DNA from: Sphingobium boeckii
GTDB lineage: Bacteria > Pseudomonadota > Alphaproteobacteria > Sphingomonadales > Sphingomonadaceae
DNA: 64,000 bases
Assembly (NCBI RefSeq): GCF_014199215.1
Contig: NZ_JACIJC010000001.1
Location: forward strand, 560,001-624,000
Direction: 5' to 3'
Within the stretch, counting starts at the first letter, position 1, and the number at the start of each line of letters is the position of its first letter. Below, piece by piece: positions 52,427 to 63,744 of the stretch. A model generated the notes under the pieces. That model made no database searches and had not been told where the DNA came from. It saw nothing but the letters and a program-made list of their open reading frames with translations. The position numbers and the translations under genes are program-made.

Positions 52427-54448
52427 TCAGTTGAACCGCCCCTTCGTCGCTGCCTTTTCCTTCAGCAGTGGCGCGATATCGAAGCCGTGTTTTTCCAGGC
52501 CCGCGACGATCTTGTCATTGCCTTCCAGGTCCGCCCAGAACATCGGGCCGCCGCGGTAGATCGGCCAGCCGTAACCGTAGATCCACACCACATCGATATC
52601 CGACGCGCGCTGCGCCATCTTTTCTTCCAGGATCAGCGCGCCTTCGTTGACCATCGTATAAAGCGTGCGTTCGATGATTTCCTGATCGCTGATCTCGCGC
52701 TTCACCGCGCCAGCCTTGGCCGAGAAGTCGTCGATGATCGCCTGCACCTCGGGACTGGGCGAAGGATTGCGCTTTTCATCATAATCATAAAAGCCCTTGC
52801 CGGTCTTCTGGCCCCAGCGGCCAACCGCGCACAGCGCATCGCGGACATTCTCGATTCTGGACGGATCGCGATGCCAGCCGATATCCACGCCCGCCAGATC
52901 GCTCATCTGGAACGGCCCCATGGGCATACCGAAATCCATATGGACCTTGTCGATCTGCTGTGGCGTCGCGCCTTCCATCAGCAGTTTCATGGCCTCGATC
53001 TGGCGCGGCTTGAGCATCCGATTGCCGATAAAGCCGTCACACACACCCGCGACGACCGCAACTTTCTTGATCTTCTTGGCGACCGCCATGGCCGTGGCGA
53101 GCACATCATCCGCGGTCTTCGCGCCGCGCACCACTTCGAGCAATTTCATCACATTGGCAGGCGAGAAGAAGTGCAGGCCGAGCACATCCTGCGGCCGGCT
53201 GGTGGCGGCGGCGATCTCGTTTACGTCGAGATAGCTGGTGTTGGACGCGAGGATCGCGCCGGGTTTGGCGATGGTGTCGAGCTTGCCGAACACCTCTTTC
53301 TTCACGTCCATATTCTCGAAAATGGCTTCGATGATCAGGTCGCAATCGGCCAGATCTTCGATGTTCAGCGTGGGCGTGAGCAGGCCCATCGCCTGTTCCA
53401 CGGCTTCGGGCTTGATCCGGCCCTTGGCGGCGCTGGCTTCGTAATTCTTGCGGACCACGCCGGTGCCGCGATCGAGCGCGGCCTGCTCCTGCTCCACGAT
53501 GGTCACCGGTATGCCGGCACTGAGGAAATTCATCGAAATGCCGCCGCCCATCGTGCCCGCGCCGATCACGCCGACCTTCCTGATGTCGCGCAGCGTGATG
53601 CCCTCGGCGATCCCGTCGATCTTGCTGGCCTTGCGTTCGGCGAAGAAGATGTGCCGCTGTGCCGCCGATTGCGCCCCGAACATCAGCTTGGTGAATTGTT
53701 CGCGCTCGAACGCCATGCCTTCGGCGAACGGCAGGCGGGTGGCGGCCTCGACGCAGGCGATGTTGGCGGCGGGCGCTTCAAAGCCGCGAAATTTCTTCGC
53801 ATTCGCCTTGGCGAATGCCTCGATCGACGCCGGATCGCCCTTGACGGGCATCTCGCTCGACTTGCGCGGCCCCCTGGAGATCGCGTCCTGCGCAAAGGCG
53901 ATGGCATCGGCTGCCAGCGTGTCGTCACCCGCGATCTTGTCGACCAGGCCGAGCGCTTCGGCCTTGGCGGCGCTGATCGGTGTGCCGGTGGCGCACATCT
54001 CGACGGCGGCTTCGATCCCCGCCACGCGCGGCAGACGCTGCGTGCCGCCCGCACCGGGCAAGAGGCCGAGCTTCACTTCGGGCACGCCAAGCTGCGCGGA
54101 GGCGACCGCGACACGGTAATGACAGGCGAGCGCGGTTTCGAGCCCACCGCCGAGCGCCGTGCCATGGATCGCGGCGACCACTGGCTTGGGGCAATTCTCG
54201 ATGAAATCGACCAATTCGGGCAACCAGGGATCGACCGGCGGCTTGCCGAATTCGGTGATATCCGCGCCCGCAAAGAAGGTGCGTCCATCGCAGCGGATGA
54301 CAACCGCTTTCACGCTGTCATCGTCCATCGCTTGCTGAATGCCGGCCTGCAGACCGATGCGCACGGCAGCGCCCAGCGCATTGACCGGGGGATTGTTCGA
54401 AATGATGACGAGCACGTCGCCCTGGCGTTCGGTGGTGACTACAGACAT
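52427..54448 (-). CDS. fadJ: Multifunctional enoyl-CoA hydratase / 3-hydroxyacyl-CoA dehydrogenase (FadJ/FadB-type)
   Basis: 673 residues. N-terminal crotonase domain ([22 protein letters not shown] in two parts, with the catalytic glutamate region [14 protein letters not shown]), then an NAD-binding domain ([12 protein letters not shown]) with [15 protein letters not shown], then two C-terminal 3HCDH domains. It performs steps two and three of beta-oxidation. It is the last gene of a minus-strand catabolic set, with 16 bases separating it from the esterase. Shorter than E. coli FadJ (714 residues) at the N-terminus and without an obvious isomerase. FadJ versus FadN-type cannot be settled by eye. 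Confidence 0.95.
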
Positions 54449-54464: not shown

Positions 54465-55688
54465 TCAATCGGCCAAGGCCGCGTAAAGCATCGTCTTGAT
54501 TTCCCGCCGCACCGGATAGGTGCTGGAAGGCATAAGCTGGGTCATGAACAGCATGATGATCTCTTCATGGGGATCGACGAAAAAGGCGGTGGAAAACATG
54601 CCGCCCCAATAGAAATCGCCAATGGACCCCGGGATCATGGTCGCCGCGGAATCGATCGTTGTGGCGAAACCGAGACCGAAGCCCGCGCCCGCATTCTCCG
54701 CTTCGCTGAACAGCGCGGTGGAATGTTGCGTCAGATCACCGCCGCCGGGCAGATGGTTCGCGGTCATCAGGTCGAGCGTCTTGCGGCTGAGGATCCGCGC
54801 ACCATCCAGTTCGCCCTCGTTCAGCAGCATCCGGCAGAAGCGATGATAATCACTCAATGTGGAGGCCATGCCGCCGCCACCCGAGAGCTGTTGCGGTTTT
54901 TTCGCCCAGGCGGTGGTGGCGCCGGGATCCCACAATTTCATCTTCGCGACCGGATCGAAAACCTGGCAATCGGGCACGCGCGCGATCTTGCTGTCCGGAA
55001 TCTGGAAATGCGTGTCGTCCATGCCCAGCGGGCGGGTGATCCGCGCGGCGATCACCTCGTCCAGCGGCGTGCCTTCGATGCGCTGGATCACGGCACCAAG
55101 GATATCAGTGGCGATCGAATAATTCCAGGAACTGCCGGGATCGAATTGCAGCGGAATATACGCGAGCAGCGCGATCAGCTCTTCCAGATCGGGGCCACTG
55201 AACGCTTCCAGTCTGGCCTTGCGATAGGCCGCGTCGATCGGCGTGCGCTCCTGAAAACTATAGGTGAAGCCCGCGGTGTGCCGCAGCAGATCGATCATCC
55301 GCATCGGCTGGGTGCAGGGGCGGCTGACGAACGGTGTATTGCCGCCGCCCGCCACGAACACGCCCAATTTGTTCCATTCGGGAATGATCTTCGTGACCGG
55401 ATCGGACAGCGCGATCTTGCCCTCTTCCACCAACTGCATGAACGCCACCGAGGTGATCGGCTTGGTCATGGAGGCGATGCGGAAAATGGCGTCTTGCTTA
55501 AGCGCTTCGCCGGGCCGCGCTTCGCCCTGCACCGAAAGATGCGCGATCTCGTCACCCCGCCCGATGAGCACAGCGGCATGGGGCAGTAGGCCGGGATCGA
55601 GATATTTCGCCTTCAGATGCGCCGGGATGCGGGCCAGTCGCTCGGGCGAAAAGCCGAGCTCCGCGGGGTCGGAGACGGTGAGAGTCAT
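54465..55688 (-). CDS. Serine hydrolase, beta-lactamase-like (family VIII esterase type)
   Basis: 407 residues from ATG 55688, with GGAG 7 bases upstream; an open frame to 55856 is not needed. Class C beta-lactamase-like fold: the SxxK motif SMTK near residue 95, a YSI tyrosine motif in WNYSIATD and an [10 protein letters not shown] block. Family VIII carboxylesterases such as EstB have this pattern. It may free an acid from an ester or lactone before CoA activation, fitting the neighbouring acyl-CoA genes. Confidence 0.88.
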
Positions 55689-55773: not shown

Positions 55774-56577
<804 letters not shown>

Positions 56578-56645: not shown

Positions 56646-57713
56646 TCAGGCACCGGCTTTCACCGCGAATTCCCATGCCGATTTGGCCAGCCCGTGCACC
56701 CGCGCCGCGGTCGCCTCGGCCTGCGCGCTGGATGCGGTGCCGTCCACGATCCGTTTCTTGATGCCCTGGACGATGCCGGTCAGGCGAAAGAGATTGTAGC
56801 TGAAATACCAGTTGAGATCGGGCACGCCGCTGCGGCCGGTCGCCGCGCAATAGCGTGTCACCGTCTCTTCCAGCGACGGAATGCCGAGCGATTCCAGGTC
56901 GAGGCCGCCGATGCCCGATCGGCCTTCCGGCTCGGTGACCCAATTCATCAGATAATAAGAAAAATCGGCCAGTGGATCGCCGAGTGTAGAAAGCTCCCAA
57001 TCCAGCACGGCGCGCACCCTGGGCTCGGCGGCGTCGAAGATCATATTGTCGATCCGGTAATCCCCGTGAACGATGGACGTCCGATCCTGCGCAGGCACGG
57101 TGCGCGGCAGCCATGCGATCAACCGCTCGACATCGGGCATGAACTCGGTCTCGGACGCGCGATATTGCTTGGTCCAGCGGCCCACCTGCCGCTCGAAATA
57201 ATTGCCGGGCTTGCCATAGTCGCCCAGTCCCACAGCGTCGTGATCCACGGTGTGCAGCGCGGCCAGCGTATCGGTCATCCCATGATAGAGTCCGCGCCGT
57301 TCTTCGGGGGCCATGCCGGGGAGCGATCCGTCCCAAAGATTGCGACCTTCGACCATGGCCATCACGTAAAACATGGATCCGATCACGTGATCGTCCGCGC
57401 ACAGGCCATAAGGCCGCGCGACGGGGAAGCCGGTGGGATGCAGCGCCGCGATCAGCCGATATTCGCGGTCCACCGCATGGGCGGAGGGCAGCAGCGCGCC
57501 AAAGGGCTTGCGCCGCAACACATAGGCACCGCTGGCGGCGTCGATCCGATAGGTCGGATTGCTTTGCCCGCCCTTGAATTTGGACAGATGGATCGGCCCT
57601 GCAAAGCCGGTGACATGGGCCGTCATCCACGCGGTCAGCGCGGTCTCATCGAGCCGGTCCCTTTCGGGGACTTCGGTGGTGCCCACCATGTCTTTGTCTG
57701 CAGCGGCGACCAT
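56646..57713 (-). CDS. APH-family phosphotransferase, ACAD10/11 kinase-domain type
   Basis: 355 residues from ATG 57713, whose A is also the last base of the TGA of the upstream acyl-CoA dehydrogenase. Aminoglycoside phosphotransferase fold: [19 protein letters not shown] lysine, catalytic [13 protein letters not shown] and the metal site [17 protein letters not shown] (split). In mammals this domain is fused in front of the dehydrogenase in ACAD10 and ACAD11, and in bacteria LvaA phosphorylates 4-hydroxyacyl-CoA in levulinate breakdown. A 4-hydroxyacyl-CoA kinase role is proposed here. Confidence 0.88.
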
Positions 57714-59002
57714 CAGCGCCCCGCAGCCGCCCGGGCGGCAGCAATGGCTTCGCGCCCGCCGTGTCTGCCGAACTCCATCCGCGCGATCGAGCGATTGTGC
57801 ACCTCGTCCGGCCCGTCCGCCAGCCTGAGCGTGCGGATGCCGGCATAGGCCTTGGCCAGATCGAAATCCTCGGACACGCCCGCGCCGCCATGCGCCTGGA
57901 TCGCATCGTCGATGATGCGCAGCGCCATGCGGGGGGCGGAGACCTTGATCATCGCGATCTCGCCCTGCGCGCCCTTGTTGCCCGCTTTGTCCATCATGTC
58001 CGCCGCCTTCAGGCAGAGCAGCCGGTTCAGTTCGATATCGATCCGGGCTTCGGCGATCCTTTGCTCCCACACGCTCTGTTCGGCGAGCACCTTGCCGAAG
58101 GCGACACGGGACAACAGGCGCTTGGCCATCGCGTCGATCGCCGATTCCGCCACACCGATCGTGCGCATACAATGATGGATGCGCCCCGGCCCCAGCCGTC
58201 CCTGCGCGATCTCGAACCCGCGGCCTTCGCCCAGCAGCATATTGTCCACCGGAACACGCACGTCCTTCAGCTCGATTTCCATATGGCCATGCGGCGCGTC
58301 GTCATAGCCGAACACCGGCAGATGGCGCAGGATGTTCACCCCCGGCGCGTCCAGTTCCATCAGGATCATCGATTGCTGCGCATGGCGTTGTGCCTCGAAA
58401 TCGGTCTTGCCCATCACGATCGCGATCTTGCAGCGCGGATCGCCCGCGCCCGAAGACCACCATTTGACGCCGTTCAGCACATAATGATTGCCATCCCGTT
58501 CGATTCGCGTCTCGATATTGGTCGCGTCGGAAGAGGCGACGGCGGGTTCGGTCATCAGAAAGGCGGAGCGGATCTCCCCATCCATCAGCGGCTTGAGCCA
58601 GCGATCTTTCTGATCGCGCGTGCCATAGCGGTGAAGCACCTCCATATTGCCGGTGTCCGGGGCGGAACAGTTGAAGGCTTCGGAGGCCCAGCTAATCCGG
58701 CCCATCTCCTCGGCGCAGAGCGCATATTCCAGATTGGTGAGGCCGGGGCCGTCGAATGCAAAGCTGTCGTCCACATGCACCCGGCCCGATGTGGGGGGCA
58801 TGAAGAGATTCCAGATGCCGGCCGCCTTGGCCTTGGCCTTGGCCTCTTCGACCACGGGCAGCACTTTCCAGCGCCCGCCCTCGCGCTGCTGCGCATGATA
58901 ATCCGCATCATGCGGCCGGACATGGTTTTCGACGAAGGCGCGCACGCGGTCTCGCCAGTGGCTTTGCCGTTCGGTGAGGGTGAAATCCATGTCCGTCTCC
59001 AT
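57713..59002 (-). CDS. Acyl-CoA dehydrogenase, ACAD11-like
   Basis: 429 residues (a second ATG at 58990 would remove four). Acyl-CoA dehydrogenase fold with [33 protein letters not shown] (two parts), [16 protein letters not shown] and [16 protein letters not shown]. These blocks are those of ACAD11 rather than of ordinary fatty-acyl dehydrogenases. Where common acyl-CoA dehydrogenases have the catalytic IYEGT, this protein reads LADGPDEVH. It is expected to remove phosphate and hydrogen from 4-phosphoacyl-CoA made by the overlapping kinase. Head of the minus-strand catabolic set. Confidence 0.93.
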
Positions 59003-59251: not shown

Positions 59252-60409
59252 ATGAGCGATCTTGAAACCTTCCGTGCGGAAACGCGAGTCTGGCTTGAGG
59301 CCAATTGCCCGCCCGAGATGCGCGAGCCTGTCCGCGACGAGACCGATGCCTGTTGGGGTGGTCGCAATCCCACCTATAAATCGCCCGCGCAGAAATTGTG
59401 GATGGATCGGATGGCCGAAAAGGGGTGGACGGTGCCCGATTGGCCCAAACCCTATGGCGGCGGTGGCCTGTCTCCGGCGGAATCCAAGATATTGCGTGAG
59501 GAGATGGCCAAGCTCGGCTGTCGCAGCCCCTTGTCCAGCTTCGGCATCTGGATGCTTGGCCCGGCGCTGCTGAAATTCGGGACCGAAGCGCAAAAGATCC
59601 ATTATCTGAACCAGATCGCCAAGGGCGAAATCCGCTGGTGCCAGGGTTATTCGGAGCCCGGTTCTGGATCGGATCTGGTATCCCTCCAGACTTTTGGCGA
59701 GGATAAGGGCGATCACTGGATCGTTAATGGCCAGAAGATCTGGACCAGCTATGCCGACAAGGCGGACTGGATCTTCTGCCTGGTCCGCACGGACAAGCAT
59801 GACAAATATAAGGGCATCAGCTTCCTGCTGTTCGATATGGCAACGCCCGGCGTCACCACGAAGCCCATCAAGCTCATCTCCGGCAATTCGCCGTTCTGCG
59901 AGACCTTCTTCGATAACGTCCCCGTGCCCAAGGATCAGATCGTCGGAGAATTGAACCGCGGCTGGGATGTGGCGAAATATCTGCTGGGGCATGAGCGGGA
60001 GATGATCTCCGGCGCAGGCAATGCGCCCGTCGGTTCGCTGGGCGCGCTGCACAAGGAATTGATGGCGCAGGATCCGCTGCTGCGTGCGGAAATGGCGAAG
60101 TTGGATGTCGATACGCTGGCCTTCCGCGCGATGGGCGAAAAGTTCATCGACGAAATGAAGGCGGGCAAGGGCCATCCCGCCCAGCCCAATATGATGAAAT
60201 ATTTCGGTACCGAACTGAACAAGCGCCGCGCCGAGCTGGTGATGGCGGCGGGCGGATCGGACGCGCTCGAATGGGAAAGCGACGGGTCGGGCGGTGGCGC
60301 CAAGCCGCGCCAGTGGCTGCGCACCAAGGCCAATTCGATCGAGGGCGGCACCAGCGAGGTGATGCTGAACGTGATCGCCAAACGCATCCTCGATCTGCCG
60401 GGAGCCTGA
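59252..60409 (+). CDS. Acyl-CoA dehydrogenase (catalytic-subunit type)
   Basis: 385 residues from ATG 59252 (MSDLETFRAETRVWLEAN); the frame is open to 59189. It is of the pimeloyl-/steroid-type large-subunit group: WMDRMAEKGWTVPDWPKPYGGG (split), WCQGYSEPGSGSDL, NGQKIWTSYAD, and near the end SIEGGTSEVM with the catalytic glutamate. Head of a plus-strand set of four genes. Substrate could be a cyclic, branched or dicarboxylic acyl-CoA. Confidence 0.92.
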   Translation: MSDLETFRAETRVWLEANCPPEMREPVRDETDACWGGRNPTYKSPAQKLWMDRMAEKGWTVPDWPKPYGGGGLSPAESKILREEMAKLGCRSPLSSFGIWMLGPALLKFGTEAQKIHYLNQIAKGEIRWCQGYSEPGSGSDLVSLQTFGEDKGDHWIVNGQKIWTSYADKADWIFCLVRTDKHDKYKGISFLLFDMATPGVTTKPIKLISGNSPFCETFFDNVPVPKDQIVGELNRGWDVAKYLLGHEREMISGAGNAPVGSLGALHKELMAQDPLLRAEMAKLDVDTLAFRAMGEKFIDEMKAGKGHPAQPNMMKYFGTELNKRRAELVMAAGGSDALEWESDGSGGGAKPRQWLRTKANSIEGGTSEVMLNVIAKRILDLPGA

Positions 60410-60550: not shown

Positions 60551-61687
60551 ATGCCACTGTATTACGATGACGATCAGGCCATGCTGCGGGACAGTGCTTC
60601 GGCATTCATGAAGACCGAAGCGCCGACCACGCATTTCCGCGAATTTCGCGACAGGAATTGCAGCGATGGTTTCTCCCACGATCTATGGAAGCAATTCGCC
60701 GAAATGGGCTTCTCCGGCATGTTGATTCCGGAAGATCAGGGTGGGCTTGGCATGGGGCATGTCGAGGCCGGTATCGTGCTCGAAGAGATCGGCCGCAATC
60801 TGTCTCCTTCGCCTTTCCTCACGACCTCGGTCATAGGCGTCGAGGCGCTGAAGGCCGCCGACGCCGCGACGCGCGGAAAATGGCTTCCGGGCATCATCGC
60901 GGGCGAAACGGTGATCGGCATCGCGGTGGACGAAGGCGCGAAGCACCGGCCCGAACAGATCGCGATGACGGCGGAGCGTTCGGGCAACGGCTTCCGCCTC
61001 ACGGGCAAAAAGCAGTTCGTGGTGCAGGGTGCTGCGGCGGACCTGCTGATCGTCGCGGCGCGCACTGCGGGCGCGCCGGGGGAGACGGACGGGCTGACGC
61101 TGTTCGCGGTGGACAAGGATGCGGCCCATCTCTCGATGGAGGCGGCGCGTCTGGTCGATTCCAGCATGGGCGCGCATGTGAATTTCGATGGCGTGGAGGT
61201 GGATGCCGATGCCGTGATCGGCGATGTCGACAATGGCTGGGCGGTGCTGACCAGGATGCTCGATGCAGGCCGGATCGGCGCGGCGTCCGAAGCGATCGGC
61301 GTGGGCGCGGCAGCGATGGATATGACGGTGGATTATCTCAAGCAGCGCAAGCAATTCGGCCGGTTGATCGGTGAATTTCAGGCGCTGCAGCACCGTGCGG
61401 CGCATCTCTATGCGGAAATGGAGGTTGCCCGGGCGGCTGTGCTGAAGGCGCAGCAACTGCTCGATGCCGGTGATCCCAAGGCCGAATTGATGATCGCAGT
61501 GGCCAAGGCCAAGGCCGGGCAGGCGGTGAGTCTGGCGGTGAAGGAAGGCGTACAGATGCACGGCGGAATCGGGATGACCGACGAATATGATATCGGGCTT
61601 TACATGAAGCGCGATCGGGCGCTGGCGGAGTTCCTGGGGGATGCGAATTTCCATGCAGACCGCGTGGCGCGGCTGCAGGGTTATTGA
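60551..61687 (+). CDS. Acyl-CoA dehydrogenase (small-subunit type)
   Basis: 378 residues from ATG 60551. Fold signatures: FAEMGFSGMLIPEDQGGLGMG, EEIGRNLSPSPFLTTSV, AIGVGAAAMDMTVDYLKQRKQFGR (split) and VQMHGGIGMTDEYDIGLYMKR. The C-terminus reads RALAEFLGDANFHADR and lacks the EGT/EGG glutamate seen in the 59252 protein, as expected for the non-catalytic half of an alpha2beta2 acyl-CoA dehydrogenase. The next gene begins right after its stop (61685-61687). Confidence 0.9.
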   Translation: MPLYYDDDQAMLRDSASAFMKTEAPTTHFREFRDRNCSDGFSHDLWKQFAEMGFSGMLIPEDQGGLGMGHVEAGIVLEEIGRNLSPSPFLTTSVIGVEALKAADAATRGKWLPGIIAGETVIGIAVDEGAKHRPEQIAMTAERSGNGFRLTGKKQFVVQGAAADLLIVAARTAGAPGETDGLTLFAVDKDAAHLSMEAARLVDSSMGAHVNFDGVEVDADAVIGDVDNGWAVLTRMLDAGRIGAASEAIGVGAAAMDMTVDYLKQRKQFGRLIGEFQALQHRAAHLYAEMEVARAAVLKAQQLLDAGDPKAELMIAVAKAKAGQAVSLAVKEGVQMHGGIGMTDEYDIGLYMKRDRALAEFLGDANFHADRVARLQGY

Positions 61688-62830
61688 ATGGCATTAGACC
61701 CCGAAACCTTTGATGCGCTGATCGAGACGATCCGCCGCTTCGTCACCGAACGACTGCGCCCGCTCGAGGCGCAGGTGGGCGAGGAGGACGAACTCCCCGC
61801 GGCTCTGATCGAGGAGATGAGGCAGCTCGGCCTGTTCGGGCTTTCTATCCCGGAGGACTATGGCGGGCTTGGCCTGTCGATGGTCGAGGAACTGAAGATC
61901 GCCTTCGAATTCGGGCGCACCTCGCCCGCGATGCGGTCCGCCTTCGGCACCAATGTGGGCATCGGCAGCCAGGGGCTGGTGATGTCGGGCACGCCCGAGC
62001 AGAAAGAGAAATGGCTCCCGCGCATCGCCACTGGGGAGATCATCACCAGCTTCGCGCTCACCGAACCCGATGTCGGATCGGACAGCGCCGCTGTGAAGCT
62101 CCGCGCGGTCCGTGACGGCAATGTCTGGAAACTCTCGGGCACCAAGCGCTATATCACCAATGCGGACAAGGCTTCGCTCTTCACGGTGATGGCGCGCACG
62201 GGCGGGGCGGGCGCACATGGCGTCTCCGCCTTCCTCGTCCCCGCCGATCTGCCGGGCCTCACCATCGGCATCCCCGAACGCAAGATGGGTCAGCAGGGCG
62301 CGCATGTCTGCGACGTCAATTTCGATGACGTGCCCGTGCCTGCGGAGAATATGCTGGGCGCGGAGGGCGATGGTTTCAAGGTGGCGATGCGCGTGCTCGA
62401 TCGCGGGCGGCTTCATATCTCGGGCGTCTGCGTCGGCGTGGCGGAGCGGCTAATTGCGGACAGCGTGGCCTATGCCGTGGAGCGCAAGCAATTCGGCAAG
62501 CCGATCGCGGAGCATCAACTGATCCAGGCGATGATCGCCGATTCCAAGACCGAGGCGCTGGCCGCGCGCGCCTTCGTGCTGGATGTGGCGGCGAAGAAGG
62601 ATGCGGGCGAAAACACCACGATGGAGGCCGCAGCGGTAAAGCTCTTCGCCTCCGAAATGGTCGGCCGGGTGGCCGATCGCGCGGTGCAGATCTTCGGCGG
62701 CGCGGGCTATATTGCGGATTACGGGATCGAACGCTTCTACCGCGACGTGCGCCTGTTCCGCATCTATGAAGGCACCACACAGATACAGCAGCTTGTCGTC
62801 GCCCGCGAGACGATCAGGCGGGGAGGATGA
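61688..62830 (+). CDS. Acyl-CoA dehydrogenase (SCAD/MCAD-like)
   Basis: 380 residues. A standard homotetrameric acyl-CoA dehydrogenase: LFGLSIPEDYGGLGLS, SFALTEPDVGSDSAA, KRYITNADKA and the catalytic glutamate in RIYEGTTQIQQ. It oxidises a straight or branched acyl-CoA to the enoyl-CoA. It starts at the base after the stop of the 60551 gene. With the other two dehydrogenases it gives the plus-strand set three different first steps of beta-oxidation. Confidence 0.94.
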   Translation: MALDPETFDALIETIRRFVTERLRPLEAQVGEEDELPAALIEEMRQLGLFGLSIPEDYGGLGLSMVEELKIAFEFGRTSPAMRSAFGTNVGIGSQGLVMSGTPEQKEKWLPRIATGEIITSFALTEPDVGSDSAAVKLRAVRDGNVWKLSGTKRYITNADKASLFTVMARTGGAGAHGVSAFLVPADLPGLTIGIPERKMGQQGAHVCDVNFDDVPVPAENMLGAEGDGFKVAMRVLDRGRLHISGVCVGVAERLIADSVAYAVERKQFGKPIAEHQLIQAMIADSKTEALAARAFVLDVAAKKDAGENTTMEAAAVKLFASEMVGRVADRAVQIFGGAGYIADYGIERFYRDVRLFRIYEGTTQIQQLVVARETIRRGG

Positions 62831-62952: not shown

Positions 62953-63744
62953 ATGGATACCAGTAAACTCTTCAGCCTCGAAGGCCGCGTCGCGCTCGTC
63001 ACGGGGGGATCGCGCAATATCGGCAAATGGATCGCGCAAGGATTCATAGCCCAGGGCGCGAAGGTCTATATCTCGTCGCGCAAGGCCGATGTGTGCTTCG
63101 CCACCGCGCACGAATTGGGGCCGAACTGCATTGCCTTGCCGCAGGACGTGTCCACCGTGGGCGGTTGCCGGGATCTGGCGGCGGCCTTTTCCGAGCTGGA
63201 GCCGAAGCTCGATATCCTCGTCAACAATGCGGGGGCGGCCTGGGGCGAGGCGTTCGAGACCTTCCCCGAAAGCGGGTGGGACAAGGTGATGGATTTGAAC
63301 GTCAAATCACCCTTCTTCCTGACCCAGGCGCTGCACGGCGTGCTGAAAGCCGCGGCCAGCGCAGAGCGGCCGGGCAAGGTGATCAATATCACCTCGATCG
63401 ATGGCCAGCGGCTCAATCCATGGGAAACCTACAGCTATCAGGCCTCAAAATCCGCGCTGATCTTCCTCACCAAGCGGATGGCCGCGCGGCTGATCACCGA
63501 TCATATCAACGTCACCTCGATCGCGCCGGGTGCTTTCCCATCGGACATGAACAAGGCTGCGCGCGATCATGGCGATGGCGTGGCGAAGCGCATCCCGGCA
63601 GGTCGCATCGGCCGGGAGGAGGATATGGCCGCCGCCGCAATCTATCTCGCCTCGCGCGCAGGGGATTATGTCGTGGGGGAGACGCTCACGGTGGATGGCG
63701 GGATGGTGAACGCCAATATCGGGGGCGAGAGCATCGATCCTTGA
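62953..63744 (+). CDS. SDR family oxidoreductase
   Basis: 263 residues. Cofactor motif GGSRNIGKW, NNAGAAWGE, catalytic YSYQASKSA and a C-terminal VDGGMVN. The NIG in the cofactor motif and the N-terminal LFSLEGRVALVTGGS are those of the 3-oxoacyl reductase/gluconate-5-dehydrogenase type. It probably acts on a hydroxyacyl-CoA of the plus-strand set. The ATG at 62953 has the repeat-derived GGAGAGGGAGA 3-5 bases upstream. Confidence 0.93.
   Translation: MDTSKLFSLEGRVALVTGGSRNIGKWIAQGFIAQGAKVYISSRKADVCFATAHELGPNCIALPQDVSTVGGCRDLAAAFSELEPKLDILVNNAGAAWGEAFETFPESGWDKVMDLNVKSPFFLTQALHGVLKAAASAERPGKVINITSIDGQRLNPWETYSYQASKSALIFLTKRMAARLITDHINVTSIAPGAFPSDMNKAARDHGDGVAKRIPAGRIGREEDMAAAAIYLASRAGDYVVGETLTVDGGMVNANIGGESIDP

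Follow-up and report, generated by a model that had tools for sequence, protein, structure and literature searches.

Two overlapping genes in the window, the whole 64,000-nucleotide stretch of DNA analysed here, very probably encode a two-step entry of 4-hydroxyacyl-CoAs into beta-oxidation, in the manner of LvaA/LvaC and ACAD10/ACAD11. The direct basis of this functional reading is homology, clade membership, active-site residues, and gene order together with its conservation. The substrate, in terms of chain length and branched or cyclic structure, cannot be read off the sequence. The components of the pair are as follows.

57713..59002, minus strand: LvaC/ACAD10-11-type acyl-CoA dehydrogenase (ACAD), open reading frame of 429 aa, assigned by homology, tree and residues
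56646..57713, minus strand: APH-fold kinase of the ACAD10/11 type, a putative 4-hydroxyacyl-CoA kinase, open reading frame of 355 aa
57711..57715, minus strand: TGATG junction of dehydrogenase stop and kinase start, with one base in common

The junction reads CTGATGG, and the shared base pointed out by the first-pass annotation is seen where the dehydrogenase TGA (57715-57713) meets the kinase ATG (57713-57711). With this TGA between them, the pair consists of two ORFs and not of one fused chain. An in-frame ATG at 58990 of the dehydrogenase ORF opens the sequence MDFTLTERQ, which is the N-terminus of the closest relative (locus L008, Sphingomonas colocasiae), and GGAG is located upstream of it. 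Because L008 begins at the equivalent ATG and GGAG precedes it, the real dehydrogenase start is probably 58990, not 59002. Dehydrogenase residue numbers used here are counted from 59002.

Structure matches indicate that the resemblance of the dehydrogenase to ACAD11 is real homology. The PDB search returned mouse ACAD11 (8v3u, E = 5.4e-133; 8v3v also matched), human ACAD11 (2wbi, E = 2.1e-131), and the presumably mycobacterial 4hr3, described as a "putative acyl-CoA dehydrogenase" (E = 9.5e-122). After these top four chains, three of ACAD11 and 4hr3, the best E-value was 7e-39. Identity to the mouse ACAD11 domain is 57% over 389 columns, and the ACAD11 blocks recognized earlier are present: a 13-letter block at residue 181, a 14-letter block, and LADGPDEVH. 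Grouping with ordinary acyl-CoA dehydrogenases, which the first-pass annotation had named as evidence against its reading, was tested in a maximum likelihood tree of 56 ACADs and did not occur. One group (100/99) unites the window protein with mouse ACAD11 and 20 bacterial LvaC-like proteins, and 14 further ACADs from this genome fall outside it. The tree took 16 of the 18 ACAD matches of that genome, i.e. the window protein, one from contig C3 described below, and the 14 others, while L098 and L102 were filtered by length or as duplicates; P. putida LvaC was not among the sequences.

Residues of the active site follow the same pattern. The phosphate pocket R269, H277 and R280 corresponds to R626, H634 and R637 of mouse ACAD11, and the catalytic D396 corresponds to D753, an Asp where ordinary ACADs have Glu. 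We looked for the full set R626/R631/H634/R637/D753 in 223 aligned ACADs drawn from loci of relatives and from the same genome, after removal of near-identical sequences that left 77 of the 80 sphingomonad ACADs. It was found in 92 rows, and each of these is either LvaC-like or the sister protein from C3. They comprise 77 sphingomonad proteins, 12 proteins encoded at loci L108-L119, mouse ACAD11, and one protein each from the window and C3. One more row comes from a truncated version of the window gene and does not include the last column, and none of the remaining 130 carries the set. In the portion of Rashan et al. 2025 (PMC12440821) used here, ACAD11 R626, H634 and R637 are modelled as holding the 4-phosphate, with D753 as the catalytic base. 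Replacement of R626, H634 or R637 was most disruptive to the dehydrogenase step, only partly so when R637 was changed to Lys, and the pocket residues are reported to be common to ACAD10/11 and LvaC. Structure matches, tree, and catalytic and pocket residues thus all back an ACAD11/LvaC-type dehydrogenase, and an ordinary acyl-CoA dehydrogenase is ruled out by the tree and the residues.

For the kinase, the PDB search gave 3dxp (E = 2e-123), the ACAD11 kinase domain (1.6e-75) and 9o56 (1.2e-55), with 40% identity to the ACAD11 domain. D218 and N223 match the catalytic D220 and N225 of ACAD11, and R175 retains the CoA-side Arg, R176. The Arg beside the alpha-C Glu (DRE) is retained as well; counted along the ACAD11 chain it is residue 84, as opposed to the published R86. 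The kinase tree is divided by a 95/100 branch, with the window kinase, mouse ACAD11 and most relatives on one side. The other side holds two APH proteins of the same genome (L004 and L005), the kinases from three C3-type loci, and those from the LvaC-like loci L110 and L118. Another APH protein of this genome (L007) sits at the end of a very long branch, and the tree does not divide it from the side of the window kinase. Kinases of LvaC-like loci do not form one clade and require five changes on the tree. This tree is comprised of 25 rows; L111 was left out, as were the L127 and L131 kinases, APH proteins L003 and L006 of the same genome gave no match, and P. putida LvaA was not included. Its outgroup rows are on very long branches, and finer placement is unsure. 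The assignment to the ACAD10/11 type is upheld by PDB matches, catalytic residues and the kinase tree.

An ordinary ACAD lying by chance next to an unrelated antibiotic-type phosphotransferase would be suggested by the Pfam assignment of the kinase to APH and by its weak matches to aminoglycoside, macrolide and capreomycin kinase models. These matches reach only 19-25 bits, far under cut-offs of 205-550, and an antibiotic kinase is ruled out on this ground. The E-value to ACAD11, the clade, the pocket residues and the conserved linkage also speak against a chance neighbourhood, which is already refuted at the level of sequence and to which we give hardly any credence.

On the preferred reading, the reaction and the pathway would proceed as follows. 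The kinase would transfer phosphate from ATP to the 4-hydroxyl of a 4-hydroxyacyl-CoA. Asp396 of the flavoprotein would then take the C2 proton, with transfer of a hydride from C3 to FAD, and phosphate would leave C4, held by R269, H277 and R280. Return of the hydride from FAD would give a normal 2-enoyl-CoA with zero net redox change, and an enoyl-CoA hydratase/3-hydroxyacyl-CoA dehydrogenase, either the FadJ-like protein listed below or others in the genome, would complete the cycle. The scheme follows the mechanistic proposal in PMC11342911 and the FAD result in PMC12440821, both obtained on homologs and both taken from the portions of these papers used here. Separate bacterial orthologs stood in for either ACAD10 domain in vitro, as described in the part of PMC11342911 that we used.

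To characterize the gene order, we used 80 titled relatives, the best 80 of 592 confirmed matches. In 69 of these 80, a zinc alcohol dehydrogenase (ADH) gene is located between the dehydrogenase and the kinase. It was counted only when the match exceeded 50% identity and 150 residues. The gene in the closest relative is located as follows.

L008:7281-8366: zinc ADH between dehydrogenase and kinase

The start of this L008 gene sits in the same TGATG overlap. Its identity to the zinc ADHs of the other counted relatives is 59-82%, and the solved structures closest to it are alcohol dehydrogenases of class I and class III type. Among the best 80 of 592, the dehydrogenase adjoins the kinase in three loci (L056, L059 and L062), in which no zinc ADH match was detected; six further contigs end too early, and two loci are without a downstream kinase. 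A search of the window genome disclosed no close zinc ADH copy, the best four matches being 35-38% identical. Because 69 of the best 80 of 592 relatives have a zinc ADH between the genes and the window genome has no close copy, the direct dehydrogenase-kinase overlap is a derived state. Most likely, the window genome lost the zinc ADH gene and retained the pair, which strengthens the case for the pair as a core and weakens the argument from overlap. Taken alone, the overlap is unremarkable: TGATG or ATGA occurs at the ACAD stop in 12 of 80 relatives (best 80 of 592), and the gene that follows there is mostly the zinc ADH. That the two proteins are made together, as proposed from the shared base, is plausible, but the direct overlap on which the proposal was built most likely results from loss of a normally intervening gene.

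Distribution of the pair was assessed in 118 genomes of the order, including the genome of the window. The dehydrogenase is present in 88 (E <= 1e-100), the kinase in 59 (E <= 1e-60), and both genes in 57; in 35 of these 57, the kinase follows downstream on the same strand at a distance of no more than 3 kb. In the family of the window, 30 genomes have both genes and 24 of them have the two linked. The gap between dehydrogenase and kinase is 1,057-1,395 bases in 23 of the 24 linked genomes, the exception being the window.

Several observations count against the functional reading. The kinases of LvaC-like loci do not make up a single clade, the long-branched L007 is not set apart from the window kinase in the tree, LvaC-like genes also occur on plasmids (L116 and L117, see below) with no kinase match in the examined stretch, and 31 of the 88 dehydrogenase-bearing genomes of the order have no kinase at E <= 1e-60. 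We inspected 10 of these 31 and found in eight a different APH-family gene within ~ 10 kb on the same strand. In the other two (G014 and G009) no APH was found on the dehydrogenase contig, which in G014 is only 5.8 kb long. Long open frames in G013 and G014 were considered as a natural kinase-ACAD fusion and rejected, as the window kinase has no match at 1e-5 in the stretches examined.

Some loci outside the main set deserve mention. In family f5 (L108, L109, and others), the dehydrogenase occurs without a window-type kinase at E <= 1e-60, and a different APH is located within ~ 10 kb on the same strand in 8/8 genomes checked. For the plasmid-borne LvaC-like genes L116 and L117, no kinase match was found in the examined stretch. 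The gene at L117:7010-8248, on plasmid pISP1 of Sphingomonas sp. MM-1, is beside linX and near linA (hexachlorocyclohexane degradation) and between IS6100 copies; among the matches listed, three Sphingobium plasmids have the same score. On a Deinococcus radiodurans plasmid (L118:6992-11026), an LvaC-like gene is followed by a phosphotransferase and then by a histidine phosphatase. This combination is also described for the levulinate cluster of P. citronellolis in the part of PMC6692424 at hand.

The genes surrounding the pair in the window are listed here.

55774..56577, minus strand: SDR-family oxidoreductase, downstream of the kinase
54465..55688, minus strand: serine esterase of the beta-lactamase family (PF00144), start set at a chosen internal ATG
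52427..54448, minus strand: FadB/FadJ-like enoyl-CoA hydratase/3-hydroxyacyl-CoA dehydrogenase, match under the cut-off
59252..60409, plus strand: divergent ACAD a, nearest model pimC large subunit, far under cut-off
60551..61687, plus strand: divergent ACAD b, nearest model pimD small subunit, far under cut-off
61688..62830, plus strand: divergent ACAD c, with Glu at the catalytic column (IYEGT)
62953..63744, plus strand: divergent SDR

Conservation of these neighbours differs from gene to gene. Among the best 80 of 592 relatives, the kinase is downstream on the same strand in 72, compared with 27 for the SDR, 16 for the esterase, and at least 11 for the FadJ-like gene; the last is a lower bound, as the examined flank often ends near that gene. 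Among the 68 loci with more than 5.5 kb downstream, the corresponding numbers are 66, 27, 16, and 11. On the divergent side, ACAD a is found in 66, ACAD b in 60, ACAD c in 4, and the SDR in 59 of the best 80 of 592. These counts take strand and side into account. When the best match anywhere in the locus is accepted, they become 73 for the kinase, 67 and 64 for ACADs a and b, and 60 for the divergent SDR, and those of the downstream SDR, esterase, FadJ-like gene and ACAD c are equal under both rules. The downstream SDR, esterase and FadJ-like genes are therefore conserved patchily around the pair. As the pathway partners proposed in the first-pass annotation, they are weak candidates.

Individual assignments of these proteins are broad. 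For the downstream SDR, only the generic PRK07231 exceeds its cut-off among the best 25 of 231 NCBIfam rows, and the FadJ-like protein reaches 449 bits with the FadJ model, compared to a cut-off of 869. The esterase, which we take to be a "family VIII esterase", belongs to the Pfam beta-lactamase family. Its nearest structure is an esterase (7pp3, 1.5e-110), as are the nearest solved chains in general, and with the methyl acetate hydrolase model it reaches 151 bits at a cut-off of 550. No match in this set indicates lactones as substrates, and the suggestion that this protein acts as a lactonase was rejected for want of support.

The same chemistry could be directed to other hydroxyacyl-CoAs, with branched, cyclic or aromatic side chains, in a catabolic cluster that includes the divergent ACADs and SDR. 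This is a possibility we consider rather unlikely. It draws on the fact that the best-kept neighbours among the best 80 of 592 relatives are the pimC/pimD-like ACADs (66/80 and 60/80) and the divergent SDR (59/80), and on the zinc ADH between the genes of the pair in 69 of those 80. However, the divergent genes may belong to different pathways, and the substrates in the used portions of PMC11342911 and PMC12440821 are straight-chain 4-hydroxyacyl-CoAs. A levulinate (lva) operon is still less probable and appears a poor fit, although LvaA-type and LvaC-type proteins and an SDR do occur together. The 95/100 branch splits the window kinase from the kinases of L110 and L118 in the tree without P. 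putida LvaA, no acyl-CoA synthetase is among the 10 proteins scanned (the pair plus surrounding genes), and a search of the genome gave no DUF6285 match. LvaB is, as we understand it, the DUF6285 protein. The lva operon was rejected on the lack of a DUF6285 match and on the kinase tree.

A search of the window genome for the two families revealed seven APH matches and 18 ACAD matches at E <= 1e-5, including the window gene. Among them is a second ACAD-kinase pair.

G000:C3:172397-170137 (L106:10137-12397), minus strand: second ACAD-kinase pair, with an ATGA overlap
C3:172397-171213, minus strand: ACAD of this pair
C3:171216-170137, minus strand: kinase of this pair

The C3 kinase is ~ 54-55% identical to the window kinase, compared with only ~ 33-34% for the two dehydrogenases, and an ADH gene upstream of the C3 pair is 34% identical to the zinc ADH. 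The C3 dehydrogenase retains the R/H/R/D set, placed in IYDGPTEVH and HCMRW, as opposed to LADGPDEVH and HCMRT in the window protein. Within a larger stretch of the same contig (G000:C3:166024-201246; L106, L107), four APH-family genes (L005, L001, L004 and L007) are located within ~ 35 kb. This segment also contains genes for SDRs, a P450 and a TonB receptor as well as a thiolase-like gene, and it looks like a catabolic island.

Of 240 genomes in the class, 16 contain a relative of the C3-type dehydrogenase (E <= 1e-90), counting the window genome. Plasmid records with such a relative number 128 (E <= 1e-80), and 46 of these belong to one genus. All 20 aligned C3-type proteins carry the R/H/R/D set and are without the ACAD11 motif. 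They form a clade (100/99) that is sister to LvaC/ACAD11, and the two together are separated from the 14 other ACADs of the genome with 100/100. A kinase match lies beside the C3-type gene (flank up to 1.5 kb) in 6 of the 16, one of them weak (L127). In four annotated plasmid loci, a phosphotransferase is directly downstream in three, once at a distance of 11 bases and twice overlapping, and none is present in the fourth. The seven C3-type kinases included in the kinase tree fall into two clades. For most members sampled outside plasmids, no adjoining kinase was seen in the flank covered, which counts against a fixed kinase pairing in the C3-type clade.

Tentatively, and with somewhat less than even confidence, we suggest two sister families of phosphate-eliminating flavoproteins. 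The C3-type family would have been re-paired with kinases of two clades, and it would probably act on a hydroxyacyl-CoA other than a straight-chain one, i.e. branched or ring-bearing. If true, the chemistry would reach past the family known so far, into a sister clade that shares the pocket, and the prediction is directly testable. The sister clade, and not the overlap, is the most useful lead from this analysis. Our literature searches, none of which was aimed at this clade, turned up no paper on it.

Comparison with described systems shows that the split pair is a known bacterial form and not a new kind of system. The first-pass annotation was right in placing the two steps on separate proteins, as the two ORFs confirm, but a "split ACAD11" is not new, because LvaA and LvaC have already been published as separate genes (PMC11342911 and PMC12440821, in the portions used). 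PMC11342911, in that portion, matches the kinase domains of ACAD10/11 to the separate P. putida LvaA (29%) and their ACAD domains to LvaC (62 and 56%), and gives values of up to 51% and 38% for other bacterial kinases. Homologues of lvaABCD are recorded in Alpha-, Beta-, and Gammaproteobacteria (the available part of PMC6692424, citing Rand et al. 2017). Literature searches listed no paper on the sphingomonad locus itself. On the present reading, the route that was lately ascribed to mammalian ACAD10/11 would be widespread in sphingomonads.

With LvaA/LvaC of the P. putida KT2440 lva operon, the window pair shares separate kinase and ACAD genes, the same proposed reactions and the pocket residues. 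It differs in gene order and in the lack of a DUF6285 gene in the window genome, and its kinase is 40% identical to the mouse ACAD11 kinase domain, compared with the 29% reported for LvaA in the cited portion of PMC11342911. In mammalian ACAD11 and ACAD10 (mouse 8v3u and 8v3v, human 2wbi), both domains are homologous to those of the window and share the R/H/R pocket, the catalytic Asp and the kinase Asp/Asn. There they are fused in one chain with the dehydrogenase C-terminal, whereas the window has two genes with the dehydrogenase first; ACAD10 carries an additional HAD domain, according to the part of PMC12440821 used. The most similar locus, L008 of Sphingomonas colocasiae, has a dehydrogenase of 89% and a kinase of 86% identity and the same divergent genes. 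Judged by such nearest relatives, the host of the window is itself a sphingomonad. L008 and other sphingomonads have the zinc ADH gene between the pair, and the window genome is without one above 38% identity. The window pair offers simple, separate enzymes for study, with a kinase nearer to ACAD11 than the published value for LvaA.
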